A stretch of 64,000 nt of DNA from Amniculibacterium aquaticum. Its GTDB lineage: Bacteria > Bacteroidota > Bacteroidia > Flavobacteriales > Weeksellaceae. Position 1 is the stretch's first letter. Every line of letters starts with the position of its first letter. The stretch is taken from contig NZ_REFA01000003.1 of NCBI RefSeq assembly GCF_003852705.1, forward strand, positions 62,001 through 126,000, read 5' to 3'. A program made the translations under genes and the position numbers. The notes under the pieces were generated by a model. The model was not told the DNA's origin. It was given only the letters and a program-made list of their open reading frames with translations, and made no database searches. Below, piece after piece: positions 10,143 to 56,655 of the stretch.

Positions 10143-10217
10143 CGGGGCGTAGCGTAGTCCGGTCATCGCGCCTGGTTTGGGACCAGGAGGTCGCAGGTTC
10201 GAATCCTGCCGCCCCGA
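10143..10217 (+). tRNA. tRNA-Pro (anticodon TGG)
   Basis: A 75-nt tRNA with acceptor stem CGGGGCG/CGCCCCG, discriminator A, and anticodon loop TTTGGGA giving TGG. It lies 15 bases after tRNA-Ser. It is base-for-base identical to the minus-strand copy at 49123-49197. CCA is not encoded. Confidence 0.95.
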
Positions 10218-10252
10218 CAAAAAGTTATCGTACTTTTAAAAAAAACGAAAAC

Positions 10253-25376: not shown

Positions 25377-27728
25377 CTAAAAATTTAAGATTTCTGCCAA
25401 CATTCCATCACCTTCTTTTTCCAGTGCCAAAATATCCTGGGTTACTTCTTCTAAAGAACGCAATGGGGCAGGCTTGTAAAAATATTTGTTGAAGCTTAGC
25501 TCATAGCCAATCTTTACGCTGTCTAGTGCCATCCAGCTTTCTTCGGCATACGGTTTTACTTCTTTCAAATAATATTCCTGTATATTGTCTTTCAGCGGGA
25601 TGCTTTCGCTGTCACGCAGGTCGCTTTCGGTTTCGTAAATGATGTATTCACCTTTCTTTTCGGCAGGGAAATAACCATAATACGGCAAATTTTTTTCGGT
25701 ACAGCCCAAAAAAGCCAATAAATCCTCTAGCTTTTGTCCGCTGAATTTTTCAGTTTTCTTGATGACTTTCTCTGCGGTTTCATCATACCAGCTCACGGCA
25801 TCGAGGATCTGTTTCTTTTCAGAAGCCGAGAGTTTGGTTTTATCCTGTTTCAACACTTCCTCTACTTTCGCAGTGAAACTATTGAAGTTGGTAAACTCGT
25901 CTGTTCCCAACACTTCCATCAGGCGCACCGCAGTCTGGTACAGTTCTTCCTGCTTTTGCCAGGTTTCTTTTTTCAGAAAAGCGGTCAGTTGTTTGGCGTT
26001 GATATTCAGTTCGTGTTTGTCGATATAGTCGGAAATGGCTTTTTTGTGAGCTTCCAAACCGCTGTACACTTCCATTCCGTACTGCTCAAAAAGATAGTGT
26101 GAAAACTCGGGTTGTGCTTTATCCCATTTCAACACTTCAATTTTCTCTTTTGTAAACTGGGCTTTCAGTCGCTTCGGTCTTTCGATATTGATTTTATAAT
26201 ATCCAAAATCTGCATTGTCAAAAACTTTACTTGCCAGTTTTTGTTCTCCCTCTTTCTCCATTTCACTCAACCCCAGATAGCAATTCACAATTTCGCTGAT
26301 GTGTGTTTTGCTGAGTTCGCAGTTTTTATTCCCCAAATTCTTGCGCAGTTTCTGGTACATTTCACTGGCATCTATCAGCTGAACTTTTCCTTTTCGTTGC
26401 GCAGGTTTATTGTTGGTTAAAATCCAGATATAGGTGGTAATTCCCGTATTGTAAAAAATATTGTTCGGCAACTGGATGATCACATCCAGCAAATCGTTTT
26501 CAATAATGTAGCGTCTGATATTGCTCTCGCCACCGCCGGCATCACCTGTAAAAAGGCTCGAACCGTTGTGTACCGAAGCAATGCGGCTTCCGATTTTATT
26601 TTTATCGGTCAGGGCTTTCATCTTGTCCACCATTTCCATCAGAAACAGCAACTGCCCGTCGCTGGAACGCGGTACGGCATCCACATCTTCTTCTTCGCCC
26701 CAATAGTTTTTAAGTTTAATTTTAAAACGGTTGTCGATGACGTCTTTTCCGTCTTTGATGTATTTCTGCTCACTCGCCCAGCTCTTTCCATACGGCGGAT
26801 TAGACAACATAAAGTCGAACTTTGTTCCGGCAAATTCATCGGTAGAAAGTGTAGAACCCACCTTGATATGTTCAGGGTCTTTACCCTTGATCATCATATC
26901 CGATTTACAGATGGCGTAGGTTTCATCATTCACTTCCTTCCCAAACATATAGACAGAAGTGTTGGTCGCTTTGATTTCGCCCTCTGGGTCTGTAATGAAA
27001 TTTTCAGATTCAGTCAGCATTCCCCCCGTTCCGCAAGCAGGATCATAAATGGTAATCACCGAAGGAATTTGATTTTTAATCGGTTCAAAAACCATGTGCG
27101 TCATCAAATCGATTACTTCTCTTGGCGTGTAGTGTTCTCCGGCTTCCTCATTATTCTCTTCATTGAATTTACGGATCAGCTCTTCAAACACATAACCCAT
27201 TCCCAAATTAGTCAAAGCAGGCAGTTTTCTACCGCTGGAATCCAGTTTTTCAAAAGGCGTCAGATTAATATCCGGTGAGGTAAATTTTTCCAGCACATCC
27301 AGCAACACATCTTTGTTTGCCATGTGTTTGATCTGTGCCCTGAGGTTAAACATTTTGATGATTTCCTGAACATTGTCGCTAAATCCATTCAGATAGTCAT
27401 TGAAATTTCCCAGAAGAATTTGGGAGCTATTGGTAGCGTTGGTATGGAGGCTTTGCAATGTCCATTCGCTGGTATTGTAGAATACATATTTAGAAGCGGC
27501 GGTCATTCCTTTATCGTCCCATTCGGTAAACTTCATCGTATTTTTCTGAAAATCTACTTCTTCTAAAACCCTTTCTTTAGTAGGTTCAAGCAAAGCGTCC
27601 AATCTTCTCAATACCACCATGGGCAGGATAACATCTCTGTATTTTCCACGCACATAAACATCTCTAAGACAATCATCGGCGATGCTCCAGATAAAGGAGA
27701 TTAATTTATTATGTACAGTTTGATTCAT
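25377..27728 (-). CDS. hsdM: Type I restriction enzyme M subunit (N6-adenine methyltransferase)
   Basis: A 783-residue DNA methyltransferase, longer than the usual about 500 residues. SAM motif I is DPACGTGG (229-236) and the catalytic motif is NPPY (310-313). The N-terminal HsdM helical domain (LRDVYVRGKYRDVILPMVVLRRLD) is present. The extra C-terminal about 280 residues are mostly helical and include SGQKLEDLLAFLG and KPAPLRSLEEVTQDILALEKE, a region seen in long HsdM variants. It follows the small XRE gene by 24 bases and heads the operon. It methylates adenine for self-protection. Confidence 0.94.
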   Translation of the reverse strand: MNQTVHNKLISFIWSIADDCLRDVYVRGKYRDVILPMVVLRRLDALLEPTKERVLEEVDFQKNTMKFTEWDDKGMTAASKYVFYNTSEWTLQSLHTNATNSSQILLGNFNDYLNGFSDNVQEIIKMFNLRAQIKHMANKDVLLDVLEKFTSPDINLTPFEKLDSSGRKLPALTNLGMGYVFEELIRKFNEENNEEAGEHYTPREVIDLMTHMVFEPIKNQIPSVITIYDPACGTGGMLTESENFITDPEGEIKATNTSVYMFGKEVNDETYAICKSDMMIKGKDPEHIKVGSTLSTDEFAGTKFDFMLSNPPYGKSWASEQKYIKDGKDVIDNRFKIKLKNYWGEEEDVDAVPRSSDGQLLFLMEMVDKMKALTDKNKIGSRIASVHNGSSLFTGDAGGGESNIRRYIIENDLLDVIIQLPNNIFYNTGITTYIWILTNNKPAQRKGKVQLIDASEMYQKLRKNLGNKNCELSKTHISEIVNCYLGLSEMEKEGEQKLASKVFDNADFGYYKINIERPKRLKAQFTKEKIEVLKWDKAQPEFSHYLFEQYGMEVYSGLEAHKKAISDYIDKHELNINAKQLTAFLKKETWQKQEELYQTAVRLMEVLGTDEFTNFNSFTAKVEEVLKQDKTKLSASEKKQILDAVSWYDETAEKVIKKTEKFSGQKLEDLLAFLGCTEKNLPYYGYFPAEKKGEYIIYETESDLRDSESIPLKDNIQEYYLKEVKPYAEESWMALDSVKIGYELSFNKYFYKPAPLRSLEEVTQDILALEKEGDGMLAEILNF

Positions 27729-28709: not shown

Positions 28710-29630
28710 TTAAATTTTTCTTCTTTTTTTCTTTTTAAATAATTCAGGATCAGGTGCTGTGAAGCTTGGTTTCATAATTTCATGAGCAATAGTACTCAGC
28801 TGATTTAAAATTGGTGTGATATTACTTTTCTCGTTATTCTCAAATTTTTGGGAATCTGGATTTTGAGAAAATTCACTTTTAAAAATTTCTTTTTCTTGAT
28901 TTGCATTGAGCATGTTTTTAATATCCGTAATCTTTAATTTATTCGTGATTTCAGAAAGTTTATAACCCGACGAATATTGTCGAGCCGTCTCATTATTAAT
29001 ATCATCATTTCGGACTATTCGCATTCCTGAAACTCCAACTTTTACATTTTGTGAAAGTATAACACGATAATTTAAATCATTCATTTTCTGAATGAGTTCA
29101 TCGAAATTTTTTGCCGTTTTAAGACAGGATTTCAAATCTTTCAGCATTTGATTTTTCTTTTCAATACCAATTTCAATATCCGTTTTCAGATTCATTTCTT
29201 TACAAACTTCACGAACGGCTTTTCCGAAAGTCTCACCTATTTTATGCGCTTTTATGGTGTTTTTTCCATGGATATTAATTCTATTAACAACAAAATGAAT
29301 GTGCTTTTGCTTGGTAGAAGAATGAATATCTAATCTAATTTGATTTTGTTCGGTTACACCCACTTTTTTCAATGCTTTCAAAGTTAATTTCACCAAATCT
29401 TCATTTGATAATTGATCGCCAATTGATTTTTCCGGAGAAATATATCCTGTAAAAGCCCATTTTTTAACATTAGAATTTCTATCGGCAATCGTCTTCATTT
29501 CCAGAAATTGCTTTTCGGGAGCTTCATTCAGTAGATTCTGGCTGAAAACCATTTCGGCTTTTCCTTTGTCATTTCCGTTGTATTCCAAAGCGATTTTTGA
29601 AATTCTTCTTGTGGTTGCAGAGTTATTCAT
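28710..29630 (-). CDS. Relaxase / mobilization nuclease (MobB-type)
   Basis: A 306-residue relaxase that should nick the element at oriT and lead the strand into a recipient. The metal-binding histidine motif appears as IHSSTKQKHIHFVVNRI near residues 101-117, as in the Relaxase/mobilization nuclease domain (PF03432). A conserved GKAVREVCKEMNLKT segment follows. The C-terminal about 60 residues are low-complexity and charged. The start overlaps the end of the accessory gene by 8 bases. It has no fused helicase, consistent with a small mobilizable element relying on a helper conjugation system. Confidence 0.85.
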   Translation of the reverse strand: MNNSATTRRISKIALEYNGNDKGKAEMVFSQNLLNEAPEKQFLEMKTIADRNSNVKKWAFTGYISPEKSIGDQLSNEDLVKLTLKALKKVGVTEQNQIRLDIHSSTKQKHIHFVVNRINIHGKNTIKAHKIGETFGKAVREVCKEMNLKTDIEIGIEKKNQMLKDLKSCLKTAKNFDELIQKMNDLNYRVILSQNVKVGVSGMRIVRNDDINNETARQYSSGYKLSEITNKLKITDIKNMLNANQEKEIFKSEFSQNPDSQKFENNEKSNITPILNQLSTIAHEIMKPSFTAPDPELFKKKKRRKI

Positions 29631-32953: not shown

Positions 32954-33769
32954 TTATTGAAGTAATTCTTTTTCAATTTTAATTAATCCTTCCTGACCTT
33001 TATTAGTTAGTAATTTTTCTATTACTGATTCTTCCATATTCTCGAAATTTTTCGAAAAAACAGTTTTCAAAAATTTGGCAACATCCTTTCTTTTATTATC
33101 GCCTCTATAAAGATCCCATACATTCCAACCAAAATGCATTAAATCTATGGTACGTAATTTTTGTATCTTTATCGAATCTATATCCTCAATTTTACTATCC
33201 TTAAGGAAATTTACAAGATAGGTACAAAGTCTAAAAATTTCTTCATTACAAGCGTACGGTGCAAATTTTTGTTTTGTGTATTGGTCAATAAAATCTAACT
33301 TTTCCTGAAGAATTTTTTCGTTTTCAAATTTCGCTTGAATTCTTATTTTTTCAATATCAGAAAGTTCAACTGGCTTTTCAGCTTCCTCTAATGTATTTGA
33401 TATTTCTTTTTTATCTTCTAAGGTTGGTTTCTCTTCGATAATATTTTGAGGTTTTGCATTCAATTCCGAATTCTCCGTCGAATTAGCTTTTTGAGTATTC
33501 ATTAAATCGGCTTCTTGTTTTTCAACATTATTCTGATTATATAATTTATTTTTTATTTGTTTGAATATTTCTATAAGAGAAATACTCAAAGAAACAAAAG
33601 CCAAATACAATAAAATGAATACTAAATTGATAACCCAAAAAATACTATTTGCAGTAAATTCATCTACTCCCTTTTCAAGTACTATCAACCTTACTCCTAA
33701 ACCTGTAATTACTCCACCAATAATAATAGCAAGATTTTGAATTAAAATATCTCGATAATTCTGTTTCAT
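32954..33769 (-). CDS. Membrane protein of the integrase operon, unknown function
   Basis: A 271-residue protein with two N-terminal membrane segments (about residues 11-30 and 43-66), a long charged linker rich in Glu, Lys and Asn (70-150), and a helical C-terminal domain (about 160-271) including YTKQKFAPYACNEEIFRLCTYLV and IDLMHFGWNVWDLYRG. No family is recognised. It overlaps the integrase stop by 4 bases (ATGA), so it is translationally coupled to it. Cargo or an exclusion-type function is possible; nothing in the sequence decides. Confidence 0.6.
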   Translation of the reverse strand: MKQNYRDILIQNLAIIIGGVITGLGVRLIVLEKGVDEFTANSIFWVINLVFILLYLAFVSLSISLIEIFKQIKNKLYNQNNVEKQEADLMNTQKANSTENSELNAKPQNIIEEKPTLEDKKEISNTLEEAEKPVELSDIEKIRIQAKFENEKILQEKLDFIDQYTKQKFAPYACNEEIFRLCTYLVNFLKDSKIEDIDSIKIQKLRTIDLMHFGWNVWDLYRGDNKRKDVAKFLKTVFSKNFENMEESVIEKLLTNKGQEGLIKIEKELLQ

Positions 33770-35022
33770 TTTTGATTTTTAAAAAGTGTTTTTAATTGTA
33801 TTGCTTCTGCTGCTTTATTTTTCTTTTCATCAATTACTTTGGCGTAAACTTGAGTTGTTTTTACATTCGTATGACCAAGCATTTTACTTACCGTGTAAAT
33901 GTCCGTTCCGTTGGATAATTGTAAAGTTGCAAAGGTGTGACGAAAACAATGGAAAGTAATATTTTTCTGGATTCCTGCTTTTGCTACCCAAGTTTTTAAT
34001 GGTCGATTGATCCAAGATGGATCTGTTAAGTTTTCAAAAACTAAATCATTGGGCGACTTCGGATCTCCACAAATCTCTAAAGCTTGCAGAGAAATTGGCA
34101 TATATTCTACACCTTTTGTCTTTTTTTGTGTGAAATTTATTCTTGGCTGATTGCTTTCAATATTTATTTCATTCCATCTCAATTTCTGAATATCAGAATG
34201 TCGCAATCCTGTTAATGCTGAAAAAAGTGCGGCACGTTTCAGTACATCGTTTTCGCAAGGTGTTTCCACTAAAGTATTCAATTCTTCAATAGTTAAATAT
34301 TCTCTTCTTGTTTCTGCTTGAGGAATACTTTTTATTTTTGAAGAGATATCTGTGGTAAAATAACCATCGATAAAAGCTTGTTTCAGTGCTGCTTTGAAAA
34401 CAGAAAAATAAGTTGAAGCTGTATTTTGTGAAAGTATTCCATTTTTATTTCCTCCTCTTTCAGCAGTCAGTAGAAACGATTTAAAATCCTCACAAAATTT
34501 CAAATTAATCTGAGAAAATTCTATATTTTCATCAGCAAAACTCTTCAAAAACTCTATGGATCTTTCCCAGTTTGTGATAATGGAAATCGAACTATTCTTG
34601 TGTCGCTTTTTAATTAAAGCTTCAAAATATTTCACAAAATTTTCTTGAGACTTTTCTTTTTGTTCCGCCTGAATGCTATCCAGTTCGCTGTATAGATCAA
34701 TATTATCATATTCTTTCTGTCGTAATTTTCTTACGGCATCAGCATACAACATGGTTTCCATATCATTATCGCTTTTGCAAATAATGATTCCATTGTCATT
34801 CCTTTTTGGTTTATAAGAAACAGAAGTTTCTGTAGTTCTTGCTACTCTTTTTTTATCGAAAACAACTGTAGCAACACTTCTGTTAAGATATTCTCTAAGT
34901 CGCTGAGGCGATTTCTTTCCGCTAACCTGAACCGGATAACTTTCCAAATAAATGTACCATTCCTTTCTATCTTCTGCTTTTCGAAGCCGAACCGTGACTT
35001 TTGTTTTGGTTAATTCTTTCAT
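33766..35022 (-). CDS. Tyrosine-type site-specific integrase
   Basis: A 418-residue recombinase of the Bacteroidota phage-integrase type. The arm-binding N-terminus (VRLRKAEDRKEWYIYLESYPV) is followed by an SAM-like core-binding domain (about 115-215) and the catalytic domain with Arg in LTGLRHSDIQKLRW, HCFRHTFA (HxxR), LGHTNVKTTQVYAKV (His and the Tyr nucleophile). All five key positions appear intact. It catalyses island integration and excision at the boundary repeats. It sits between an HTH gene and a membrane protein gene with 4-base overlaps on both sides. Confidence 0.93.
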   Translation of the reverse strand: MKELTKTKVTVRLRKAEDRKEWYIYLESYPVQVSGKKSPQRLREYLNRSVATVVFDKKRVARTTETSVSYKPKRNDNGIIICKSDNDMETMLYADAVRKLRQKEYDNIDLYSELDSIQAEQKEKSQENFVKYFEALIKKRHKNSSISIITNWERSIEFLKSFADENIEFSQINLKFCEDFKSFLLTAERGGNKNGILSQNTASTYFSVFKAALKQAFIDGYFTTDISSKIKSIPQAETRREYLTIEELNTLVETPCENDVLKRAALFSALTGLRHSDIQKLRWNEINIESNQPRINFTQKKTKGVEYMPISLQALEICGDPKSPNDLVFENLTDPSWINRPLKTWVAKAGIQKNITFHCFRHTFATLQLSNGTDIYTVSKMLGHTNVKTTQVYAKVIDEKKNKAAEAIQLKTLFKNQK

Positions 35023-45548: not shown

Positions 45549-45556
45549 TAAATTTG
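45549..45556 (+). promoter_or_regulatory. -7 box upstream of the Fur-family gene
   Basis: TAAATTTG matches TAnnTTTG, 21 bases before the ATG at 45578. No well-spaced TTG was found. Confidence 0.4.
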
Positions 45557-45577
45557 CATGAACTATCAATTAGAAAT

Positions 45578-46054
45578 ATGAATACCAATCAGAAGGAGAA
45601 TAATATAGAAATTATTAAGGATGTATTAAGGAATTATTTGCAAGAAAATGGTTTTAGAAACACTCCGGAACGCTATACGATTTTAGAAGAAATTTACCAA
45701 TTGGATCATCATTTTAATGTGGACGATCTTTATCTGATGATGATTCAAAAGAAATATCATGTTTCTAAAGCCACCATTTACAATACCATCGAGATTTTTT
45801 TGGATGCCGGACTCATCCGCAAACACCAGTTTGGAGAGAAAATTTCATCTTCGGCTTCTTATGAAAAATCCTATTTCGACAAGCAACACGATCATTTGGT
45901 TATCTATAAAAACGGATCGGATCGTGAGATTGACGAAATCATAGAATTCTGCGACCCTCGTATTCAAGGGATTAAAGAAGCCATAGAAAATGCTTTTGGT
46001 GTGCAAATAGACTCTCATTCTCTGTACTTTTATGGGACTAGAAAAGATTCATGA
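45578..46054 (+). CDS. Fur-family transcriptional regulator
   Basis: A 158-residue metalloregulator. The winged-helix DNA-binding domain includes FRNTPERYTILEEIYQLDHHFNVDDLYLMM and the recognition helix VSKATIYNTIEIFLDAGLI. The dimerisation domain has QHDHLVIYKNG, a degenerate version of the usual HxHHHxxC metal motif, and the structural CxxC pairs are absent, so metal specificity may differ from classical Fur. I start at 45578, where the Fur-like helix begins. It overlaps the OstA-like gene by 4 bases (ATGA). Confidence 0.88.
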   Translation: MNTNQKENNIEIIKDVLRNYLQENGFRNTPERYTILEEIYQLDHHFNVDDLYLMMIQKKYHVSKATIYNTIEIFLDAGLIRKHQFGEKISSSASYEKSYFDKQHDHLVIYKNGSDREIDEIIEFCDPRIQGIKEAIENAFGVQIDSHSLYFYGTRKDS

Positions 46055-47784
46055 AAAAAATTGTAGCTCTATTTTTATTTTTTAGTGTTTGGTTTACTGC
46101 ACAGGTCAATCAAAAGAATCTTAAAAAAGATTCGTTTTTCACTCCAAGTTCTGCACAACAAAATCAAAATGCAGAAAAAATACATCATACCCATTCCGAT
46201 ACTTTTTCAAAGGATCCTAAAAAGTATGATGGAAACCCTTACTTTCAGGGCAAAGTTCAGTTTGACCATCAAGGCTCTACACTTTTTGCAGATGTGGTGA
46301 TCCTTTACCAAGAACAAAACTTTGTAAAAGCCATTGGAAATGTAAAGTTGCAAAACCCCGATGGCACCATAATTACCGCAGGCGAAATGGAATACGATGG
46401 CAATACACAAAGAGGAATTGCCAGAAAAAATGTGGTGCTTACCGATCCCAAACAGAGCATAAAAACGGAAACTTTGTATTACGACAAACTTCAAAAAAAA
46501 GCGTATTTCAACACGGGAGGTACCATTTCGGATTACCAAAATACCATGTACACCAAATCCGCAACTTACAATACGGAAAGCCGAATAATTGATTTTACAG
46601 GAAATGTGAAAATCAACAATGCCGAATACACGGTTGAAGGACAAAATATTCTTCAGGATCAAAACACCAATACGGCAACTTTTAGCGGTCCCACTTGGAT
46701 TACCAATAAAAAAAATCCTGGCAATCAAATTTTTACTGAAAAAGGAATTTATAACATGACTTCCAAAGAGGTTTGGTTAGAGAAAAATTCGACCATCTAT
46801 TACAACGGAAAAACCCTGAAAGGCGACAGAATGTATTTTAACCAGATCACAGGATTCGGAAAAGCCAACGGAAGGGTCACCCTGAACAATCCCAAAGAAA
46901 ATCGTTATATAAAAGGAGGTTATGCCGAAATTTTTGAAAAAAAGGATTCGGCGATGATTACCGAAAAGCCCTATGCTGTGAAGATTTTGGAGAAAGATTC
47001 CATATATTTTTCTGCTGAAAAAATCTTTGCCTTTCAAAAGGCCGATACAGCGGATGTCAAGAAAAAGAAAAGTTTTCTCCGTGCTTTTTACAAAGCCAGA
47101 ATGTACAAGTCCAATGCACAAGCCAAAGCCGATTCCATCAGTTTTAACGAGACCGATGGCATCATGCACCTCTTCCACAAACCCATTTTGTGGAGCGGCG
47201 AAAAGCAAGTGAGCGGTGACAAAATTGAAGCCTACTTCAATTCGGATTCCGAAAACATAGATTCTCTAAAAGTGGTGGGCAATGCTTTTGCCATTTCCAA
47301 AGCCGACTCCTTGAACCTGAAGGATGAATTCAATCAAGTAAAAGGAAAATTAATGTCAGTGTATTACCAAGACGGCGAGGTGAAATTGGCCAAAGTCATA
47401 GGAAATGCACAAGCAATCAATTATGCCGATGATCAAAATGAAAAAACCAAACAAACCGAAAGAATTGGGGTTGCCATTTCTTCTTGCGGAGTGATCGAGG
47501 CTGAGTTTGAGGAGAGAAAAGTTCAAATAATTTCGTGTAATATTGGCGCCAATTCGGAAGTCTATCCCATGAGTAAAATCGCAAAAAAAGACCGATTTTT
47601 ACCCGATTTTAATTGGAATACCAAAGATCGACCTCTAAAATGGGAAGACATCTTTTTAGACACTCCCAACAATCCAGAAACCGTTTACGAGTCGGATGAT
47701 TCTTTGTACGATCAAGCCCAGGAAATCATCCAGAAAAATAAAGAAAAAGAAGAGGCTAAAAAACCTAAAAGAACCAGGAAATAA
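46051..47784 (+). CDS. OstA-like protein (LptA/LptD-N type)
   Basis: A 577-residue exported protein: signal peptide MKKIVALFLFFSVWFTAQ, then repeated OstA/LptA-type beta-strand units (GNVKLQNPDGTIITAGEMEYDG, GNVKINNAEYTVEGQNILQD, GRVTLNNPKENRYIKGGYAEI), and a charged Lys/Glu-rich C-terminus. The beta-jellyroll forms the periplasmic bridge carrying lipopolysaccharide to the outer membrane. In Bacteroidota the OstA-like protein is separate from the LptD barrel. Coupled to the Fur-like gene, suggesting metal- or stress-linked expression. Confidence 0.87.
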   Translation: MKKIVALFLFFSVWFTAQVNQKNLKKDSFFTPSSAQQNQNAEKIHHTHSDTFSKDPKKYDGNPYFQGKVQFDHQGSTLFADVVILYQEQNFVKAIGNVKLQNPDGTIITAGEMEYDGNTQRGIARKNVVLTDPKQSIKTETLYYDKLQKKAYFNTGGTISDYQNTMYTKSATYNTESRIIDFTGNVKINNAEYTVEGQNILQDQNTNTATFSGPTWITNKKNPGNQIFTEKGIYNMTSKEVWLEKNSTIYYNGKTLKGDRMYFNQITGFGKANGRVTLNNPKENRYIKGGYAEIFEKKDSAMITEKPYAVKILEKDSIYFSAEKIFAFQKADTADVKKKKSFLRAFYKARMYKSNAQAKADSISFNETDGIMHLFHKPILWSGEKQVSGDKIEAYFNSDSENIDSLKVVGNAFAISKADSLNLKDEFNQVKGKLMSVYYQDGEVKLAKVIGNAQAINYADDQNEKTKQTERIGVAISSCGVIEAEFEERKVQIISCNIGANSEVYPMSKIAKKDRFLPDFNWNTKDRPLKWEDIFLDTPNNPETVYESDDSLYDQAQEIIQKNKEKEEAKKPKRTRK

Positions 47785-47824
47785 ATTCAATTTTCTTCTT
47801 TAATTCACATTCAAATCCATTAAA

Positions 47825-49000
47825 ATGAATCAAGATTTTTTTAAATACCAAGCGCAAACCACAGCATTTGCCTCAGGATTTCAGGTGGAAAAAGCCGTTG
47901 GATCCTATATTTACGGAAAAGACGGTAAAAAATATTTGGACTTTGTGGCAGGAGTATCCGCAAATACTTTGGGGCATTCGCATCCCAAGGTGGTTGCAGC
48001 CATAAAAGAGCAAGCCGACCGGTATCTTCATGTGATGGTTTATGGCGAATATGCCCAAGAAAAACCGGTAGCTTTGTGCAAACTTTTGGCAGAGGCAACT
48101 CCCGAACCTTTGGAGGTCACTTATTTGGTCAATTCCGGAGCCGAAGCCATTGATGGAGCTTTAAAACTGGCAAAAAGATACACCGGAAGGGAAGAAATTG
48201 TTTCGATGAAAGATTCCTATCATGGCAATACTCATGGCGCACTGTCGGTGTCGGGAAATGAAGTTCATAAAAGGGAATTTCGACCGCTTTTGCCCATGGT
48301 CAATTTTATTCGCTTCAACGACGAAAGCGAATTTTATAAAATTACCGAAAAAACGGCCTGTGTTATTGCCGAAACCGTACAAGGAGCAGCAGGATTTCTG
48401 ATGCCGGATCAGGATTATTTTAAAAATCTAAAAAAACGATGCGAAGAGGTTGGTGCTTTGCTGATATTGGACGAAATACAACCCGGATTTGGGAGGACGG
48501 GAAAATTATTTTCTTTTGAACATTTCGGCACGGTTCCCGACATCTTGGTGATGGGAAAAGGAATGGGGGGCGGAGTCCCGGTGGGTGCTTTCATGAGTTC
48601 CGAAAAAATTATGAACAGTCTTTCTCATTCTCCAAAACTTGGACACATCACTACTTTTGGGGGCAATCCCTTGATTGCTGCGGCTTCCTTGGCAACACTA
48701 AACGAGGTGTTGACTTCTGGTCTGATGGAAGAAATGGAAAGAAAAGAACTCTTATTCCGTCAGTTGTTGGTGCATCCTAAAATTAAAAACATCAATGGTA
48801 AAGGATTGATGTTAGCGGTAAATTTAGGCGAACCGGAATTCACGCTAAATGTGGCTAAAAAATGCATGGATAAAGGTCTGATTGTCTTCTGGCAGTTGTA
48901 TAAGAATGAATACATGCGTATATCGCCACCATTGACCATCAGTGATGACGAAATCCGTGAGGGTTGCCAAATTATTTTGGACAGTTTGAATGAAATGTAA
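47825..49000 (+). CDS. Class III (acetylornithine/ornithine-type) aminotransferase
   Basis: A 391-residue PLP enzyme of the aspartate aminotransferase superfamily subgroup III. It contains VNSGAEAIDGALKLAKRYTG, the PLP-Asp motif LLILDEIQPGFGRTG, and the Schiff-base Lys in VMGKGMGGGVPVGAF. Length and motifs fit ArgD-like acetylornithine or a related omega-aminotransferase; no arginine genes are adjacent, so the substrate is not settled. It starts 40 bases after the OstA-like gene and may share its transcript. Confidence 0.87.
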   Translation: MNQDFFKYQAQTTAFASGFQVEKAVGSYIYGKDGKKYLDFVAGVSANTLGHSHPKVVAAIKEQADRYLHVMVYGEYAQEKPVALCKLLAEATPEPLEVTYLVNSGAEAIDGALKLAKRYTGREEIVSMKDSYHGNTHGALSVSGNEVHKREFRPLLPMVNFIRFNDESEFYKITEKTACVIAETVQGAAGFLMPDQDYFKNLKKRCEEVGALLILDEIQPGFGRTGKLFSFEHFGTVPDILVMGKGMGGGVPVGAFMSSEKIMNSLSHSPKLGHITTFGGNPLIAAASLATLNEVLTSGLMEEMERKELLFRQLLVHPKIKNINGKGLMLAVNLGEPEFTLNVAKKCMDKGLIVFWQLYKNEYMRISPPLTISDDEIREGCQIILDSLNEM

Positions 49001-49042
49001 AAGCCTGTGATACATTTGAGAATATAATTTCAGGCTCTAAAA

Positions 49043-49078
49043 TACAAATCCAACTTCAATATTGAGGTTGGATTTGTA
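49043..49078 (+). terminator. Terminator of the aminotransferase gene
   Basis: TACAAATCCAAC pairs perfectly with GTTGGATTTGTA (12 bp) and is followed by ATTTTTAA. Confidence 0.85.
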
Positions 49079-49095
49079 ATTTTTAAGCATAAAAA

Positions 49096-49117
49096 AAACC
49101 GTTTATAAAAACGGTTT
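49096..49117 (-). terminator. Terminator of tRNA-Pro
   Basis: AAACCGTTT and AAACGGTTT form a 9-bp stem with a 4-base loop; on the minus strand it is followed by an eight-T run directly after the tRNA. Confidence 0.85.
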
Positions 49118-49122
49118 CTTGG

Positions 49123-49197
49123 TCGGGGCGGCAGGATTCGAACCTGCGACCTCCTGGTCCCAAACCAGGCGCGATGACCGGACTACGCTACGCCCCG
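49123..49197 (-). tRNA. tRNA-Pro (anticodon TGG), second copy
   Basis: Reverse complement is base-for-base identical to 10143-10217: acceptor CGGGGCG/CGCCCCG, anticodon loop TTTGGGA. It stands alone with its own promoter and terminator. Confidence 0.95.
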
Positions 49198-49241
49198 AAA
49201 GGTCATCTAACAAAGGGATGTTACCTTTATTTTTGTGGGTG

Positions 49242-49271
49242 CAAATCTATTGTTTTTTTTCTGAATAACAA
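49242..49271 (-). promoter_or_regulatory. Bacteroidota-type promoter of tRNA-Pro
   Basis: On the minus strand TTG (49269-49271), a 19-base spacer and TAGATTTG (49242-49249) match the consensus, 45 bases before the tRNA. The rest of 49198-49357 is A/T-rich with no gene. Confidence 0.65.
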
Positions 49272-49357
49272 AAATATTTTTCTGAAAAAATAATTTATTT
49301 TTTTAATAAAAATATGAATGCCAAAGCATTTTTGTCCGGGATACAGAAGATTTATAA

Positions 49358-50626
49358 TCAATCGTTCAGTTCGTCAAATTTTGCTTTCATCGTGGGGTTG
49401 CCGTGGGTAAGTTTTTTGATGGTCAAATCTTCGGCTTTATCGTTGGCCAATCTTAGGTTGTTCTCAGACGAAAGCAATGCTGCTTTGGTTTTTTCTAATT
49501 CTTTGATAGTCTTGTCTATTCCATCAATGGCGTCTTTAAATTTTCTGCTTGCCAAATCATAATTTCTTGCAAAACCTTCTTTGAATTTGTTCATCTTCTC
49601 TTCAAAATTGGTGATGTCGATGTTCTGGCTTTTTACCATTGCCAGTTCTGCTTTGTACTGTATGGAGTTCATGGCGGCATTGCGAAGCAAAGTGATGATG
49701 GAGATGAAAAACTGAGGCCTCACCACATACATTTTCGGATATCGGTGAGAGACATCTACAATCCCGGTGTTGTAGTATTCGCTATCGGCTTCTAGCAAGG
49801 AAACCAGAATGGCGTATTCGCATTTTTTTTCGTTTCGGTCTTTGTCCAGTTCTTTCAAGAAGTCGTCGTTTTTCTTTTTTGTTGCAGTTTCGTCGCCTTC
49901 ATTTTTCATTTCGAACATGATGGAGATGATCTCGTTGCCGGCATCGTCATTTTCTCTGTAGATAAAATCGCCTTTGCTGCCCGATCTGGCGTCGTTGTCT
50001 TTCTCGAAATAGGCTTTTTGGAATGCAGTTGCTCTTAGCTTATTGAACTCTGTTTCGCAATGTTGCTCCAGCGTTTCGCCCAACATTTTAGTGGAGAGTT
50101 TCAGTTTCATGTCTTTTACACGGGAGATTTCATCGTCTTTGTATTTGATGATATCGTCTTTGGTTTTCAGTTCGGCAGCATATTTTTCGACCAGAGATTT
50201 TTCTAGAAGTTGCTTTTCGGTGTCTATATTTTTTAGGTCGTTGGCGAGACGGTCTCTTTCTTTTTCAATCTTCTGTACCGCTTCGTTTACAGCGAGTTTT
50301 CTTTCAACTTCTGTATTTTCTATTTTCGCTTTCAACTTGCTGATTTCAGCGTCTTTTTCACTTAATTTTCCTGAGAGATTCAGTTCACTTTGGGCTTTCA
50401 GTTCGGTAAGCTCTTTGTCTTTTTTAGACAGCTGTTCTTGTATGGCGTTTCTAATATTGGCTTCGGCAAGTTTTACCGCACTTTCTTTTTCCCTTTCGGC
50501 CATGTCAAGTTGTCGTTTGATTTCTTCTTCAAACTGATGGTCTCTTACTTGTTTCAGTATATCGGCAAACCCGGCTTCGTCCACTTTAAAAGCTGTTTTG
50601 CAATTGGGGCATATTATTTCATTCAT
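49358..50626 (-). CDS. DUF2130 domain-containing protein
   Basis: A 422-residue protein. A short zinc-finger-like N-terminus ([14 protein letters not shown]) is followed by a long coiled coil (about 30-190). The DUF2130 domain follows: GDFIYREND with [12 protein letters not shown], giving an Asp...Glu-x-Lys arrangement like PD-(D/E)XK nucleases, and [16 protein letters not shown] and [20 protein letters not shown]-terminal helix region (about 340-422) completes it. The family is described only as a domain of unknown function; a coiled-coil nuclease resembling RmuC is an inference. It lies 114 bases downstream of the RecQ-UvrD fusion gene. Confidence 0.8.
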
Positions 50627-50740: not shown

Positions 50741-53700
50741 TTAATCTGTTTTTCTTTCAAAGGTCAACTCTGGCAAAATGATCTTTATCTCTTGTTGGGT
50801 TTCTTCTTTTTTCCAATAGAGAACAAAGTTTACTTTAGCAGATTTCAATTCAAAGTTTTTAGCTTTCAGTTTCTCTATTTGGGCGGTAAATTGCTTTGAA
50901 AATTTTAGCACTGAATTTCCTTTTTCATCAAAACATTCCATGCTATTTAACCGTAAAGAATCACCACTTTTAAGTTCTGAAATGGCGATTTGTCGATTGA
51001 TGAAGAAATCAAGCCAAACATCTTTTAAAGTTAGATGCATGGACAATTGATTGGGAGGCAGATGCATTTCGATATTTTCAAATCGTTCTAAATTTTCTGC
51101 CGTGAGCGGGTCTAAAAAGTTTGAATTTAGATGAATTGTTAGGTTTGTTTTTGCCCGAGTCATTGCCACATACAAAAGTCGTTTCGCTTGATCGGTCGTT
51201 GCATCAAAATTTTCCAGCAGTATGAAAACATTATCAAATTCTTTCCCTTTGGCTTTGTGTATGGTTGAGACGAAAACAGTTTCTCCATTTTCATTGTAAA
51301 AATCTTCCAATTTAGACTCTCGAATGAAAACCTCTAAGTCGGATTTGTACTTGATTTTTGTGTTTGAGGCTTCAAATTCTTTGATGATGTTTCCTAAAAT
51401 TTCCAATTTCGTACTGTGTCTGTATTTATTAACCACCTCTCGTTTTGCTTTCAGCCAAATGTCATCGTTGATGGTGTAAACATCATCGGCCAAATTCAAA
51501 TGGTTCAAAAAATATCGAACTTCGTTGAGGTTGTATAAGCTGAAACCATCATTAGACTGTATCAATTTTGCTTGTAAGTTATTTTTCAAAAGCAATCCCG
51601 TAATCTGTTGTGCCTCATCGTTAGTTTTTGTCAAAACACAAGTTGTCCCTGATAGTCCTGTTGATAGTAGTTCTTGCACAAGAGGGACGGTCAGGTTTCC
51701 ACTTTTATAATGGACAATTTTAATTTTCCCATTATCATTTTGCTTTGCGATGATGGGGGTTTGTTTGATGCGGTGCGAAACTTGTTTTACAAATTGATTA
51801 GAAAACCCAACTAAGTTAATTTTACTTCTGTAATTTTCTAATAATTCATGCTTTACGGCTTGGTTTTCGAAGATGAACTGCTCAAGATGTTTAGAATCTG
51901 CACCTCGAAATTCATAAATATTTTGGTCGTCATCGCCTACGGCAATTACGCGCATTTCTTCATTTTGTTCCATCAAAGTTTGAATCAAGTCAAACTCATC
52001 TTTGTCCATATCTTGTGCTTCGTCTATCACCAAAACTGTTTTGGTTATCCTACTTACTTCTACCTCATTATTTTTGATTTTCTGAATCGTTTTGCTTAGA
52101 ATTTCGTTTGATTTTTCTAGGCTACCTACTTTACCTAATAGGTCAAAACAATAGGAGTGAAAAGTTTTAATTTCAATATAATTGGCAGCATTACCTATAA
52201 GCTGAAGCAAACGCTTTTTGAATTCAGTTGCTGCTGCTCTAGAGAAAGTAATCATTAGCAATTGCTCATGTTTAACATCCTCCATAAGAAGTAACGAAGC
52301 TAATTTGTGAACCAAAACCCTTGTCTTTCCACTACCTGGACCGGCTGCAACAACAATGTGTTTGGTTTCGTTGTCGTTAATAATTTTCAACTGAGTAGGT
52401 GAAAGTTCCCCGAAAAGTTGTCTAAATTTGGCAGGTGTAATATTTCGTTTTATTTCATTTTGCCTACTTCCTTTAAAATATTTATTGAGAAAGACAGGAT
52501 AGTTTAAATGAAAATAGTCTTCTACAAATTGCAATGCGCTTTTATAGTCTTCAATCATTTTCTTAGCATATTCTCCAACAATATGAATTTGTTGAATTTT
52601 GCTTTCGTAAAACTGATTGAGCTTTTGATAATCCTCTTTTGTGTATCTTTTTTTGTTGTCTGTTTCTGTTCTTTCAATGGTCAAACGATTGTACACAACT
52701 AAAAAACCACCTTCAATTTTTATAGCTTCAATTCTTGACAAGTAAAAAAGCGTATCTTCAATATCATCAAGATTTATTTCCAATTTGAATAAATCTGAGC
52801 CGTTCTCATAAGCTGTTTTCAGTTCATGAATTGAAAATTCAACCAAAATTTCTTCTTTTGTTGAATCTTCAGATGCCGTAGTTTTAGTTTTTTCATAAAG
52901 AAATTCGATAATAAATTTTGCTAAAGTCTGTCTTTTTTCTAATTTTTCTTTCAACAATTCTCTTGGGTGCAAGGCAATTATTGACACATGACTTTTGGTG
53001 TCTAAGATTTTTCTTTTAACCCAATTTTTGATGGCCCAAAAATTGAGAATGGTTTTTATCTTATTACTACTGATGTCATTAAGTCCCTGTTCCTCGCCTT
53101 TTTCATTCAGTTCTTTTAGATGGTATATTTGTTCTTGCTCTTTTAAAAGCAGGAGCAAATAATTTTCAATTTTACTGAAGGAATCCACAATATTAAATGA
53201 ACGATTGGTATTCTCTCCTTTTTTTATGAAAGCGGTTAGATCTTTTGCATCGGCCAGAATTTTTTCTTCACGCAAAAGATTAACGATGTTGATGACTTCT
53301 TCTTTTACAATCCCTAAATGGTCACTGATATAATCAATTCTTGATTCCGCAACCTCATCATTATTTTGTTTTCTACTTTTACTGGAGAAAAGTTTCTTGA
53401 TAATTCTTACACCTTTTTCTTTTTGGTTACCCACAAATCTCTCTGAGGAGTTGATTTTGTCTATGGCTTCTTGTGCATTTTTAGAAATAATACTGTTTGC
53501 AAAAACTCGTGGCATATTTTGGCCGCGTTTCAAATAACCGGCATCTTCCAAGGCTGCAATTGCGGTAGTTACTCTGGTTTCTATTTCGACAACATTATCG
53601 TCCCAGCCTGCTTTTCGTGCAATCTCCAAGGCAGAATTGGATACGGTTGAACGAAAGCGTGTAATTTCTTTGATGGCTTTCCAAATCTGTTGTATTTCTT

Positions 53701-55579
53701 TGATGGAAAGTTTGGTCTGATTCAACAATATGAAATGTTTACTCAAATCTTCCTCGTTGAATAAAACAAAACAATCTGCCGTAATTTTTTCATCCCTACC
53801 GGCTCTACCTGCTTCCTGAATATAATTTTCCAAAGAATCCGAAATTTCATAATGAATGACCATCCCAACATCTTTCTTGTCCACCCCCATTCCAAAAGCA
53901 GAAGTAGCCACCATAATTTGGGTATCACCGTTGACAAACGAATTTTGATTTTCAGACTTTTCTTGTTTGTCCATCTTTCCGTGGTAGGGTTTGGCACTGA
54001 ACCCGTCTTCTTTTAAGCGCTCTGCAAGCGTGTAGGCTTTTCGTGTTCTTGATACATAGATAATGGTTGGACAATTTTTTTCTTCTATCAAATCCCGAAC
54101 TTGTTGGTATTTTGTTTCTTCGTCTGATTTTTCAAAAACTTTATAATGTAGATTTGTTCTTGATGCTTTTGAGGTAAATAATTCAAGATTGAGTGAAAGT
54201 TTTTCCTTGAAATAACCCAGAATATCTTCAATAACTTTCTGTTTTGCTGTTGCTGTAAAACATGAAACGGGAATGCCGTCTTCGATATTTTTCTTTTCTT
54301 GAATGGATTTGATAAAATCTCCGATGTATAAATAATCCACCCTGAAATCTTGTCCCCACGAAGAAAAACAATGTGCTTCATCTATTACAAAACGAGCTAT
54401 TTTCCTACCTAGAATCAATCGTTCTATCGTTTTTGATCGCAAAGATTCAGGCGAAATGTACAGTATGCACGCTGAGCCATCCTCAACTCTTTCGAAAGAT
54501 TTTGCTCTTTCAATAGGGTCCAGTAAGCCGTTTATGGTAACCGCATTTGTAATTCCATTTTTTTCAAGATTATCCACTTGATCTTTCATCAAGGATTGCA
54601 ACGGTGAAATCACAACAGTTAAAGCATTAGAAGTGTCTCCACTCATCAATGCCGGAACTTGAAAAGTAATGGATTTGCCACCTCCAGTTGGGAAAACCGC
54701 TAGTATAGACTTATTATCAATTGCAGCTTTCACCGCTTTTTCTTGCAATGGTTCACCACCATAGCTTCTGTAAGAATCAAAGCCAAAATACTTTTTAAGT
54801 CCTTTATGTGCATCTAAAAAACCGTTGCAGTATTCGCAGCCACTAATGCAAGGTTTGTTTCGTAATCGAAACATGAGTTGCTCTACATCAGGATACATTT
54901 TCAAAACCCAAGGAGGTGTTATGGAATGGATTTTATTGTGTTGAACGAAGGAATCGATAAGAGATAAACAGTAAGCTAATTCAATAGGTTTTTCTACAAT
55001 AATGTTTGTTAGATAAACATGTCCACAAATTTCTTTTTTAAATTTTTGTCGAATAAGTTCTTCAATGTTCGTATCTGAATGGTTGTATGCAATATAACGG
55101 AAAAAAGCTTGAAACTCTTTTTTGTCGTATAAAAGAAGATGAAAAATCTTCTTTAGAGTGTCGTCAATCCCTTTGAAAGTAGCAATTTCATCATTCAGTA
55201 AATCTCTAGCCTTGATGGAGTCGGTCAGAGGATTATTTGCCTCAGAGGATTGGATTTTATCATCTTTGAGTAATGAATGATAGGGCTTTGTTGGAAAAAG
55301 CAATGGCGAAAGAAACAATGTGTCTATAATGTTAGCCGAATTGATACCTGCATCAAAGAGGGCTTTCCCAATATATTTAATGTCGTGATTGAAAATATTG
55401 TGTCCAGCTACGAAATGTGTTCCATTGAGAAAATGTACAAAGTCAAGTATCGAAGCTTTATGAAAAGTACTTCCATTGCCCTTGATTCCACCAATATCAA
55501 GTATTTTATTACTAATTGGTTCAATTTCTGTGTCTATGAATGCGATAGAGCTGCATGTATGTTCACTTTCTCCTTTCAA
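50741..55579 (-). CDS. Exonuclease-RecQ-UvrD fusion helicase
   Basis: A 1612-residue multidomain protein. Residues 1-125 resemble a DEDD exonuclease (Asp16, Glu18, Asp66, Asp86, Asp120), but the His usually five residues before the last Asp is Asn. A Cys cluster (244, 248, 251) follows. The RecQ helicase has TGGGKS at 298-303 and DEAHC at 400-404, then winged-helix and HRDC-like parts. A UvrD/Rep-type SF1 helicase ends it: GPGSGKT (1080-1086), DEAQD (from 1186), VGDDDQNIYEFRG (about 1215-1227), STIHKAKGKEFD (1438-1449), VAMTRAK (1471-1477). Two opposite motor classes and a nuclease in one chain suggest recombination repair or anti-DNA defence. Confidence 0.88.
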   Translation of the reverse strand: MKGESEHTCSSIAFIDTEIEPISNKILDIGGIKGNGSTFHKASILDFVHFLNGTHFVAGHNIFNHDIKYIGKALFDAGINSANIIDTLFLSPLLFPTKPYHSLLKDDKIQSSEANNPLTDSIKARDLLNDEIATFKGIDDTLKKIFHLLLYDKKEFQAFFRYIAYNHSDTNIEELIRQKFKKEICGHVYLTNIIVEKPIELAYCLSLIDSFVQHNKIHSITPPWVLKMYPDVEQLMFRLRNKPCISGCEYCNGFLDAHKGLKKYFGFDSYRSYGGEPLQEKAVKAAIDNKSILAVFPTGGGKSITFQVPALMSGDTSNALTVVISPLQSLMKDQVDNLEKNGITNAVTINGLLDPIERAKSFERVEDGSACILYISPESLRSKTIERLILGRKIARFVIDEAHCFSSWGQDFRVDYLYIGDFIKSIQEKKNIEDGIPVSCFTATAKQKVIEDILGYFKEKLSLNLELFTSKASRTNLHYKVFEKSDEETKYQQVRDLIEEKNCPTIIYVSRTRKAYTLAERLKEDGFSAKPYHGKMDKQEKSENQNSFVNGDTQIMVATSAFGMGVDKKDVGMVIHYEISDSLENYIQEAGRAGRDEKITADCFVLFNEEDLSKHFILLNQTKLSIKEIQQIWKAIKEITRFRSTVSNSALEIARKAGWDDNVVEIETRVTTAIAALEDAGYLKRGQNMPRVFANSIISKNAQEAIDKINSSERFVGNQKEKGVRIIKKLFSSKSRKQNNDEVAESRIDYISDHLGIVKEEVINIVNLLREEKILADAKDLTAFIKKGENTNRSFNIVDSFSKIENYLLLLLKEQEQIYHLKELNEKGEEQGLNDISSNKIKTILNFWAIKNWVKRKILDTKSHVSIIALHPRELLKEKLEKRQTLAKFIIEFLYEKTKTTASEDSTKEEILVEFSIHELKTAYENGSDLFKLEINLDDIEDTLFYLSRIEAIKIEGGFLVVYNRLTIERTETDNKKRYTKEDYQKLNQFYESKIQQIHIVGEYAKKMIEDYKSALQFVEDYFHLNYPVFLNKYFKGSRQNEIKRNITPAKFRQLFGELSPTQLKIINDNETKHIVVAAGPGSGKTRVLVHKLASLLLMEDVKHEQLLMITFSRAAATEFKKRLLQLIGNAANYIEIKTFHSYCFDLLGKVGSLEKSNEILSKTIQKIKNNEVEVSRITKTVLVIDEAQDMDKDEFDLIQTLMEQNEEMRVIAVGDDDQNIYEFRGADSKHLEQFIFENQAVKHELLENYRSKINLVGFSNQFVKQVSHRIKQTPIIAKQNDNGKIKIVHYKSGNLTVPLVQELLSTGLSGTTCVLTKTNDEAQQITGLLLKNNLQAKLIQSNDGFSLYNLNEVRYFLNHLNLADDVYTINDDIWLKAKREVVNKYRHSTKLEILGNIIKEFEASNTKIKYKSDLEVFIRESKLEDFYNENGETVFVSTIHKAKGKEFDNVFILLENFDATTDQAKRLLYVAMTRAKTNLTIHLNSNFLDPLTAENLERFENIEMHLPPNQLSMHLTLKDVWLDFFINRQIAISELKSGDSLRLNSMECFDEKGNSVLKFSKQFTAQIEKLKAKNFELKSAKVNFVLYWKKEETQQEIKIILPELTFERKTD

Positions 55580-56010
55580 TATTTGTTACTTCTAAGTTAG
55601 TTGGTTGGCAAGTACATATTTTAAATTCAAAAATACAGCTTCTGTATTTTAAGCCATAATTTATGAACTAAATTAACAAAAAAAGTAGTATAATTTAAAA
55701 ATAAAATTGCACCATATATTACTATTGAAGTCAATATGTTTCTCTCACTTTTTTAATTTTCAGAATGCATTAATATTGAGAAACAAAAAATCCGTTCAAA
55801 TATTGAATTCCCTTCCATCCATAGCTTTTTTTAAATTGATTTTCAACACCATAAATATGGTATCGAAGATTTCAAATTCGAGTTGTATGATAATTTTACA
55901 ACAAAAAAACTTCTCTTTTCCGAGAAGTTTTTTGTGAGTACACCAAGATCTGAACCTGTGAACAAAACGATTGAAATCAAGGTAAAACCCCACCAGAATT
56001 GTGTAAATAC
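55580..56010. other. Intergenic region with no supported gene
   Basis: 431 bases of A/T-rich sequence upstream of the RecQ-UvrD gene and downstream of pdxH. Short frames exist but lack starts, composition or homology. It holds the pdxH terminator at 55904-55933. Confidence 0.7.
55904..55933 (-). terminator. Terminator of pdxH
   Basis: AAAAAACTTCTC pairs perfectly with GAGAAGTTTTTT (12 bp) around TTTTCC; both strands end in homopolymer runs. Confidence 0.85.
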
Positions 56011-56655
56011 TTATGGAGCAAGCCTGGAAATTTCCCAATCGAAATCTTCATTCAAGCTATATAAAATCCTATCGTGTAAACGATTGGGCCTTCCTTGCCA
56101 AAATTCAATTTCATAAGGCTTGGCTAAAAATCCACCCCAATGTTTGGGTCTGGGAATCTCCTGCCCTTCCCAATCTTTTTCTAATTCGGTTAGTTTTTTT
56201 TCTAAAAACTCTCGATTCGGGATCTCTTGGCTTTGCGGCGAAACCCATGCACCCAACTGACTGCCTCGAGGTCTGGATGCAAAATACCCATCAGAAAGAT
56301 TCTCAGCCAGCTTTTCCACATTGCATTTTATTATGATTTGCCTTTCCAAGCTGGGCCAAAAAAAATGCAAACATGCTTTCGGATGATCCATTATCGTTTT
56401 ACCCTTTCTGCTTTCATAATTGGTGTAAAAAGAAAACCCCTCCCAATTGTAGGATTTTAACAACACCATCCTGGTTCGGGGACAACCATCGGCTTCTACC
56501 GTAGAAACGGAAACCGCGTTTGCTTCTGATACATTGGGATCGTTTTGTGCTTCTAAAAACCAATCTCTAAATTGCTCTATGGGATTTTGTCTGATCTGGG
56601 ATTCTATCAGTTCGGATTTGTTATAAACTTTTCTTTGATCGTGTAGGTTTTCCAT
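56011..56655 (-). CDS. pdxH: Pyridoxamine 5'-phosphate oxidase
   Basis: A 214-residue FMN enzyme making pyridoxal 5'-phosphate from pyridoxamine or pyridoxine phosphate. It has NPIEQFRDWFLEAQ, RMVLLKSYNWEGFSFYTNYESRKG (FMN phosphate binding), YFASRPRGSQLGAWVS and the C-terminal signature EIEFWQGRPNRLHDRILY. I start at 56655 (MENLHDQR), the usual N-terminus; an upstream in-frame start at 56763 would run through the divergent algH gene. A TAnnTTTG box (CAAAGGTA at 56692-56699 read on the plus strand) is a plausible promoter. Confidence 0.95.
   Translation of the reverse strand: MENLHDQRKVYNKSELIESQIRQNPIEQFRDWFLEAQNDPNVSEANAVSVSTVEADGCPRTRMVLLKSYNWEGFSFYTNYESRKGKTIMDHPKACLHFFWPSLERQIIIKCNVEKLAENLSDGYFASRPRGSQLGAWVSPQSQEIPNREFLEKKLTELEKDWEGQEIPRPKHWGGFLAKPYEIEFWQGRPNRLHDRILYSLNEDFDWEISRLAP

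Follow-up and report, generated by a model that had tools for sequence, protein, structure and literature searches.

Helicase-nuclease partnerships are a major theme of both bacterial immunity and DNA repair, and one gene in the window studied here, by which we mean the whole 64,000-nucleotide stretch of the Amniculibacterium aquaticum genome that was analysed, raises the question of what a single chain joining one exonuclease to two helicases might do. An earlier sequence-only reading had described the product as a fusion of a DEDD-like nuclease, a RecQ helicase and a UvrD helicase, with no firm functional assignment known for it. That last point holds for the open-licence PMC literature (subscription journals lie mostly outside it), in which we found no description of the three-part architecture; specifically, "RecQ" does not appear in the main text of PMC12458937, PMC10952713 or PMC11981726, and its two occurrences in PMC5512222 are both in the reference list.

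One exonuclease and two motors in a conserved chain

The open reading frame is free of internal stop codons, and its product runs, from N to C terminus, through a DEDD-type exonuclease, a four-Cys segment, a RecQ SF2 core, a winged-helix-like arm and a UvrD SF1 core (Table 1). The nearest relative among the matches listed is 84% identical in an alignment that spans residues 1-1609 of the window protein, and the architecture is therefore not a product of chance. Further, ten catalytic residues spanning all three enzymes are intact in 92 of 96 near-full-length rows, these rows being the window protein and the 95 of 104 loci with an open reading frame (ORF) of more than 1350 aa (no ORF of that length is present in L035, L037, L056, L066, L084, L094, L097, L107 and L113, which the residue counts do not include). 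The triple fusion belongs to a real and widespread family.

Table 1. Positions of the fusion gene, its parts and other features of the window.
Feature	Position	Strand	Remarks
Exonuclease-RecQ-UvrD fusion gene	50741-55579	(-)	1612-residue ORF, TTG start, TAA stop
DEDD (DnaQ-fold) exonuclease core	55169-55549	(-)	residues about 11-137; D16, E18, D66, D120, Asn115
Asn115 codon AAT (His-to-Asn site)	55235-55237	(-)	read from the window sequence
Helical segment with four conserved Cys (C185, C244, C248, C251)	54812-55168	(-)	residues about 138-256
RecQ-type SF2 helicase core	53705-54811	(-)	residues about 257-625 (about 647 by Pfam/NCBIfam)
Linker arm, winged-helix-like units (AlphaFold model)	52430-53704	(-)	residues about 626-1050
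UvrD-type SF1 helicase core	51119-52423	(-)	residues about 1053-1487
C-terminal tail, weakly conserved	50744-51118	(-)	residues about 1488-1612
DUF2130 protein, adjoins the fusion	49358-50626	(-)	PF09903, E 2.8e-88
tRNA-Pro(tgg)	10143-10218	(+)	
tRNA-Pro(tgg), beside DUF2130 and the fusion	49120-49197	(-)	
HsdR-like protein	14215-17238		read from translation
DUF262-like protein, two GHKL-ATPase-like proteins, HsdS-like protein			next in the island; read from translations
HsdM	25377-27728		confirmed by PF02384
Relaxase-like protein	28710-29630		read from translation; then primase- and helicase-like proteins
Tyrosine-recombinase-like protein	33766-35022		read from translation

Both motors are complete, as the sequence-only reading had it, with Pfam, TIGR00614, motifs and residue conservation in agreement. 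In the RecQ part, Pfam places DEAD at residues 277-452 and Helicase_C at 490-595, the translation carries GGGK, DEAH and QEAGRAGR, and the RecQ family model TIGR00614 is passed with 281.2 bits against a cut-off of 219.8; the solved sequences nearest this SF2 core include RecQ, BLM, RecQ5, RecQ1 and WRN. The classical bacterial RecQ equivalog, TIGR01389, is failed with 319.6 of the 640.2 bits needed, only positions 4-368 of its 591 being matched, and RQC, RecQ zinc and HRDC are absent from the 15 Pfam families found at E <= 1. The SF1 part is a UvrD/PcrA/Rep core (PF00580, 116.3 bits, and PF13361, 84.2 bits, both above cut-off), in which UvrD-helicase begins at residue 1060 and UvrD_C ends at 1486. 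It carries GPGSGKT, DEAQD, GDDDQ, ENYRS, HKAKG and TRA; PcrA and UvrD are among the nearest solved sequences, and none of the PcrA, UvrD and Rep equivalogs is passed (134/911, 114/1144 and 95/951 bits, respectively). The motor residues examined are retained in 95-96 of the 96 rows, and both motor families move 3'-5'.

Between the nuclease and the RecQ core, C185, C244, C248 and C251 are retained in 93-95 of the 96 rows, an Aliarcobacter relative being without the C-x3-C-x2-C part, and this segment probably forms a Zn or Fe-S site. The arm was modelled with AlphaFold as residues 612-1060 (mean pLDDT 83.8, pTM 0.53) and consists mostly of helices with short strand pairs. In fold searches it is best matched by winged-helix domains some 65-85 residues long (with Z reaching 9.8); a weak similarity that extends over the whole arm was also seen, with RPC62, a protein of tandem winged helices (Foldseek E 0.005, probability 0.41). 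Our reading of the model is that the arm comprises several winged-helix-like units, uncertain in number and arrangement.

Several known systems have parts of this chain. The best 25 of 65 PADLOC models each match a single motor, either RecQ or UvrD, and NCBIfam DpdF (NF041063) scores 220.2 bits where 550 are required, with a match confined to the RecQ part. It is this RecQ core that DpdF, PsyrT and other RecQ-like PADLOC proteins have in common with the fusion. PsyrT is a RecQ-like toxin, and the fusion might, like it, be a toxin-like or abortive effector, the unchecked helicase-nuclease activity of which harms the cell upon infection. Although the RecQ core does match the PADLOC PsyrT model (E 4.4e-81), two DpdF models outscore it, which means that the PsyrT match shows RecQ kinship alone; further, no small partner recurs beside the fusion gene, and we regard such an effector as very improbable.

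In WRN, too, an exonuclease precedes a RecQ core, and the two RecQ cores are related (E about 1e-37). The WRN exonuclease is of the DEDDy kind, and to our knowledge WRN has no UvrD motor; the exonuclease-RecQ order common to both may be convergent. Hachiman (HamAB) and Gabija (GajAB) are helicase-nuclease defence pairs, and GajB models match the UvrD core of the fusion, but these are two-gene systems with other nucleases, whereas the fusion is one chain with two motors. The Hachiman helicase is described in PMC12278908 as holding its nuclease in check until DNA damage is met.

The exonuclease domain and its asparagine

The nuclease region (first 250 residues) of the window protein has no Pfam match. 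Among 79 relatives, DNA_pol_B_exo1 is weakly matched in 12 (best E 0.0005) and RNase_T in two, and a sequence-profile search of solved structures gave nothing convincing (best E 0.09 for the N-terminus and 0.008 for the arm). An AlphaFold model of residues 8-262, built with 79 sequences, has a DnaQ-like fold (mean pLDDT 93.0, pTM 0.90). Among solved structures it is best matched by two of S. aureus DinG, 9ii8 (Z 12.7, 218 residues aligned, rmsd 3.8, 16% identity) and 8zef (Z 12.7, 223 residues), both of which align with it from first residue to last. The sequence-only reading had proposed a structural model of residues 1-130; the N-terminal unit is larger than that, as the 8-262 model aligns end to end with DinG (218 of 255 residues). 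The next fold matches, at Z about 10-11, are oligoribonuclease, DnaQ, Cap18, T7 polymerase, ExoX, RNase AS and RNase T. Cap18 (7t2s, Z 10.6) and the TREX1 homologue Plex9.1 (9mrd, Z 9.7) resemble the fusion in their DnaQ fold but are short chains, of 177 and 185 residues, that carry no helicase.

DEDD enzymes trim 3' ends, and in the DEDDh kind the His serves as the general base in catalysis. The fusion nuclease has the four acidic residues of this kind on a DnaQ fold, and five residues before the last Asp, where the His is expected, it has Asn, a substitution noticed in the sequence-only reading and now confirmed at the codon for residue 115. In an hhalign comparison, N115 falls on the His of HRAAGD in a DEDDh-type protein of the host (probability only 12%, E 0.0025), with the G-H-N, D-T and last motifs in register across model columns 47-122; with another host protein, hhalign did not usefully align the N115 motif.

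The Asn is nearly invariant in the family. D16, E18, G59-H60-N61, D66, D86-T87-L88, H101, K105, N115, P117 and D120 are all invariant in an 11-sequence alignment. Across the larger set, D16, E18 and D66 are present in 94 of 94 rows reaching these positions and D120 in 94 of 95, and 93 of the 95 rows with a residue at position 115 have Asn there, with Ser in L030 and Lys in L108. Alignments A2 and A3 were made without L105, L082, L030, L108, L045, L064, L073 and the plasmid and G-genome loci, and since the loci with odd nucleases are absent from A2, its list of "invariant" residues is cleaner than that of the full set. Specifically, L108 has also lost D120, L105 is without the nuclease domain altogether, and L082 starts late yet retains N115 and D120; L108 and L105 look like exceptions. 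A stand-alone nuclease of 199 aa on a Sulfurospirillum plasmid has D-L-E, G-H-N, D-T-L and N-S-P-x-x-D, and so the same Asn. Judged from these alignments, Asn115 is a conserved variant and an old feature of the lineage, because it is both family-wide and present in the stand-alone plasmid nuclease. The suspicion that the nuclease might be altered or inactive is thus upheld as to alteration, by the Asn at the DEDDh His place, and decay is unlikely, since family members retain both Asn115 and all four carboxylates. A near-invariant Asn at this position offers a test of how far the DEDD mechanism needs His or Tyr.

The closest structural precedent, ExoDinG (S. aureus and B. subtilis DinG), resembles the fusion in that an N-terminal DnaQ-fold exonuclease is followed by helices and then by an SF2 helicase. 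The fusion is not a member, its helicase being RecQ-type and its four Cys lying ahead of the helicase core, and we know of no UvrD motor in ExoDinG. PMC11981726 describes ExoDinG as combining a DEDDh nuclease, complete with its His, and a helicase of the DinG type that includes arch and FeS domains. For pExoDinG, in which two acidic residues and the Tyr are lost, it gives a proposed role as strand holder. This precedent, together with the position of Asn115 at the place of the DEDDh His, lends weight to a reading in which the DEDD domain of the fusion is a non-catalytic strand holder, the Asn having removed the general base, and the helicases alone do the work. The carboxylates, unlike those of pExoDinG, are all kept, and we consider a purely holding domain somewhat unlikely.

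A patchy family on chromosomes, plasmids and putative viral contigs

The fusion was found in 15 of 392 Bacteroidota genomes, the window's own included, with one match each (two candidates were scored per genome), and in 2 of 58 other related genomes (G001 and G052); presence as patchy as that in Bacteroidota indicates that it is not a housekeeping gene. The idea of a well-studied housekeeping repair gene of Flavobacteriia, named in the sequence-only reading as what would refute it, was likewise rejected, with only 1 of 35 other same-family genomes carrying the fusion at E <= 1e-100 (the nine best first-look candidates were scored per genome). The host genome has two further RecQ-type and two further UvrD-type loci, which makes the window copy an add-on. 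The congener G001 has a full copy that is 64% identical and a partial second copy that is 83% identical, and G089, outside the window's class, has 80% identity to the window fusion. Among 47 carrier genomes, 46 have one match and one (G470) has two.

A search of one genome per species across 84,980 species returned 579 tblastn relatives, other helicases included. The best 80 of these 579 loci come from Bacteroidota, Bacillota, Lentisphaerota, Spirochaetota, Fibrobacterota, Aminicenantes and one Deltaproteobacterium, and by their record titles the carriers include Bacteroidales and Clostridia of animal guts. In a FastTree phylogeny of 74 of the 96 rows (those from genome contigs, plus the window), the window falls within a supported set of 15 that also holds Bacteroidota, Lentisphaerota, Bacillota (Clostridiaceae) and Deltaproteobacterium rows. 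Phylum labels change seven times on this tree, against a minimum of four and a shuffled mean of 19.8; this pattern is compatible with transfer between phyla and is no proof of it, because the labels are clustered and contigs of foreign origin may sit in metagenome bins. The combination of an exonuclease with motors of both superfamilies, SF2 and SF1, on a single chain has stayed intact in several phyla and seems to have moved from one to another.

Mobile replicons carry it as well. In PLSDB, 26 plasmid records match at E <= 1e-60, five of them covering at least 80% of the query, and some of these copies lie near ParA/ParB or single-strand-binding-protein genes; of the 25 matches listed, 12 are annotated as "RecQ family ATP-dependent DNA helicase", two as "ATP-dependent DNA helicase RecQ" and one as "UvrD-helicase domain-containing protein", and ten are unnamed. 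A viral collection contributed 14 relatives on putatively viral contigs (L100-L113), 11 of them full length, the exceptions being L105, without the nuclease, and L107 and L113, both truncated where their contigs end. Among isolate phage records, none of the 21 that match covers 80% of the query. The plasmid and viral-collection copies, and the add-on status of the window copy, favour an alternative in which the fusion serves mobile elements as an accessory enzyme of repair or recombination. It would act, as a portable counterpart of WRN or RecBCD, on ends, gaps or stalled forks of plasmids, integrative elements or prophages, and would have restriction genes nearby only through riding the same islands. 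The bearing of its neighbours on this alternative is taken up below.

In the window, the adjoining DUF2130 gene does not recur beside the fusion in the 104 loci, nor was it found in the pdxH-flanking stretches of six same-family genomes (one a congener) or in 8.5 kb taken from another congener. No 11-mer on either strand is common to 49001-49360 and 55561-56020, as target-site repeats would be. Comparison of 45554-49000 with a stretch of the congener G002 (L191, G002:C12) showed the fur-to-aminotransferase block inverted relative to pdxH, and the G002 stretch examined has neither DUF2130 nor the fusion; with the block inverted, it does not show a clean empty site. The two tRNA-Pro(tgg) genes of the window are identical across 76 bases, lie in opposite orientation 39 kb apart, and are a possible hot spot for integration or inversion. 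Elsewhere in the window, an island at 14215-35022 carries type I restriction genes. On a plasmid of Nostoc sp. ATCC 53789 (L216:8968-15713), an IS1634 transposase gene sits inside the fusion gene and splits it.

Restriction genes nearby and a possible role against foreign DNA

No constant operon partner was found among the six ORFs on each side of the 104 loci, as delimited by a simple ORF caller and clustered by single linkage; the largest neighbour cluster covers 8 of the 104 loci, with varying offsets and strands. At least one member of six named clusters lies within six ORFs of the fusion in 21 of 104 loci. These clusters, named from Pfam matches of some members and by reading, are RhuM (8 loci), HsdR (6), McrB (5), McrC (5), HsdM (4) and HipA (4), of which RhuM and HipA are not strictly defence. 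In L098, a McrB-like gene (AAA_5) begins 2 bp past the fusion stop and is followed by McrC (Pfam-confirmed), with an HsdM-type gene five ORFs upstream of the fusion and all four on one strand. L024 has HsdR (Pfam-confirmed) and an HsdM-type gene downstream of the fusion, and L023 has McrB- and McrC-type genes there. By Pfam, Abi_2 and Eco57I proteins lie near the fusion in L103, an N6_N4 methylase adjoins a ResIII protein in L111, and TOTE primase and SMEK proteins are nearby in L108. The window copy has no adjacent restriction gene, its nearest HsdM being about 23.5 kb off in a separate island.

Colocalisation within 20 kb was evaluated for McrC (PF10117), N6_Mtase (PF02384, HsdM type) and RhuM (PF13310) in 47 of the 80 genome loci, those with longer contigs, leaving the partial second copy in G470 unused; positions were entered by hand and same-contig rows chosen by eye. 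McrC lies within 20 kb in 5 of 18 matches against 0.17 expected (Poisson P 9e-7, about 30-fold), N6_Mtase in 6 of 110 against 0.98 (P 5e-4, about 6-fold) and the accessory family RhuM in 3 genomes against 0.86 (P 0.056, about 3.5-fold), P values that are too good, since the families were picked after viewing the neighbours of overlapping loci. A tRNA synthetase control had none near among the matches listed, of 206, with 2.1 expected for all 206; as a core family, it does not correct for the clustering of accessory genes. In a second set of 16 genomes, which includes the window's own and was taken as distinct from the 47 by differing match scores, McrC and N6_Mtase were tested again. McrC lies within 20 kb in 1 of 3 matches (G278, 8.2 kb) and N6_Mtase in 2 of 44 (G088, 0.7 kb, and G393, 8.7 kb; P 0.08 alone), together 3 against 0.50 expected (P 0.015 under the random-placement null). 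For the window copy itself, the nearest HsdM is beyond the 20-kb limit.

These results bear on both sides of the mobile-element repair alternative. Accessory genes cluster with one another regardless, and the null was random placement, so that restriction genes could be near as fellow passengers only. Nevertheless, the McrC enrichment exceeds those of N6_Mtase and RhuM, and no replication or recombination partner recurs across the 104 loci. On balance, we hold repair or recombination of mobile elements, with restriction genes as bystanders, to be unlikely, yet it is the chief alternative to the explanation that follows.

The explanation that we favour, and to which we give about an even chance, is that the fusion is a stand-alone helicase-nuclease which spreads horizontally, resides in defence islands and on mobile elements, and acts on foreign DNA. 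We infer this function from the domain order, the conserved catalytic residues, the Asn variant, the arm model, the patchy spread, the plasmid and viral-collection copies and the excess of restriction genes. Against it weigh the modest share of loci with a named neighbour cluster (21 of 104), the window copy with no restriction gene beside it, and the confinement of each of the best 25 PADLOC models to one motor. The two motors, helped by the arm, would take hold of DNA that is replicating, recombining or cut by restriction, at its ends, gaps or branches, unwind it and pass the 3' strand to the DEDD domain, which would trim that strand, or hold it if the Asn slows catalysis. The outcome would be the destruction of phage or plasmid DNA, whether auxiliary to restriction systems or independently. 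Hachiman and Gabija are precedents for helicase-nuclease defence, and ExoDinG is one for the nuclease fusion. A more specific version, which we advance tentatively, is an unrecognised and widely distributed one-gene system against foreign DNA, in which the arm-joined motors gate an N-x-P-x-x-D DEDD nuclease that finishes invader DNA beside or downstream of McrBC and type I systems. Should the fusion confer protection from phages, then plasmids as well as Bacteroidales and Clostridia of animal guts would possess in it a compact defence.

The stand-alone form of the nuclease has surroundings of its own. On the Sulfurospirillum diekertiae plasmid pSDCE1 (L215:7090-8588), this 199-aa DEDD nuclease directly follows an AbiEii gene and lies about 3 kb from a McrB/McrC-like pair, a locus that may be a system in its own right. 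On another Sulfurospirillum plasmid, a hypothetical protein matches in part (H66).
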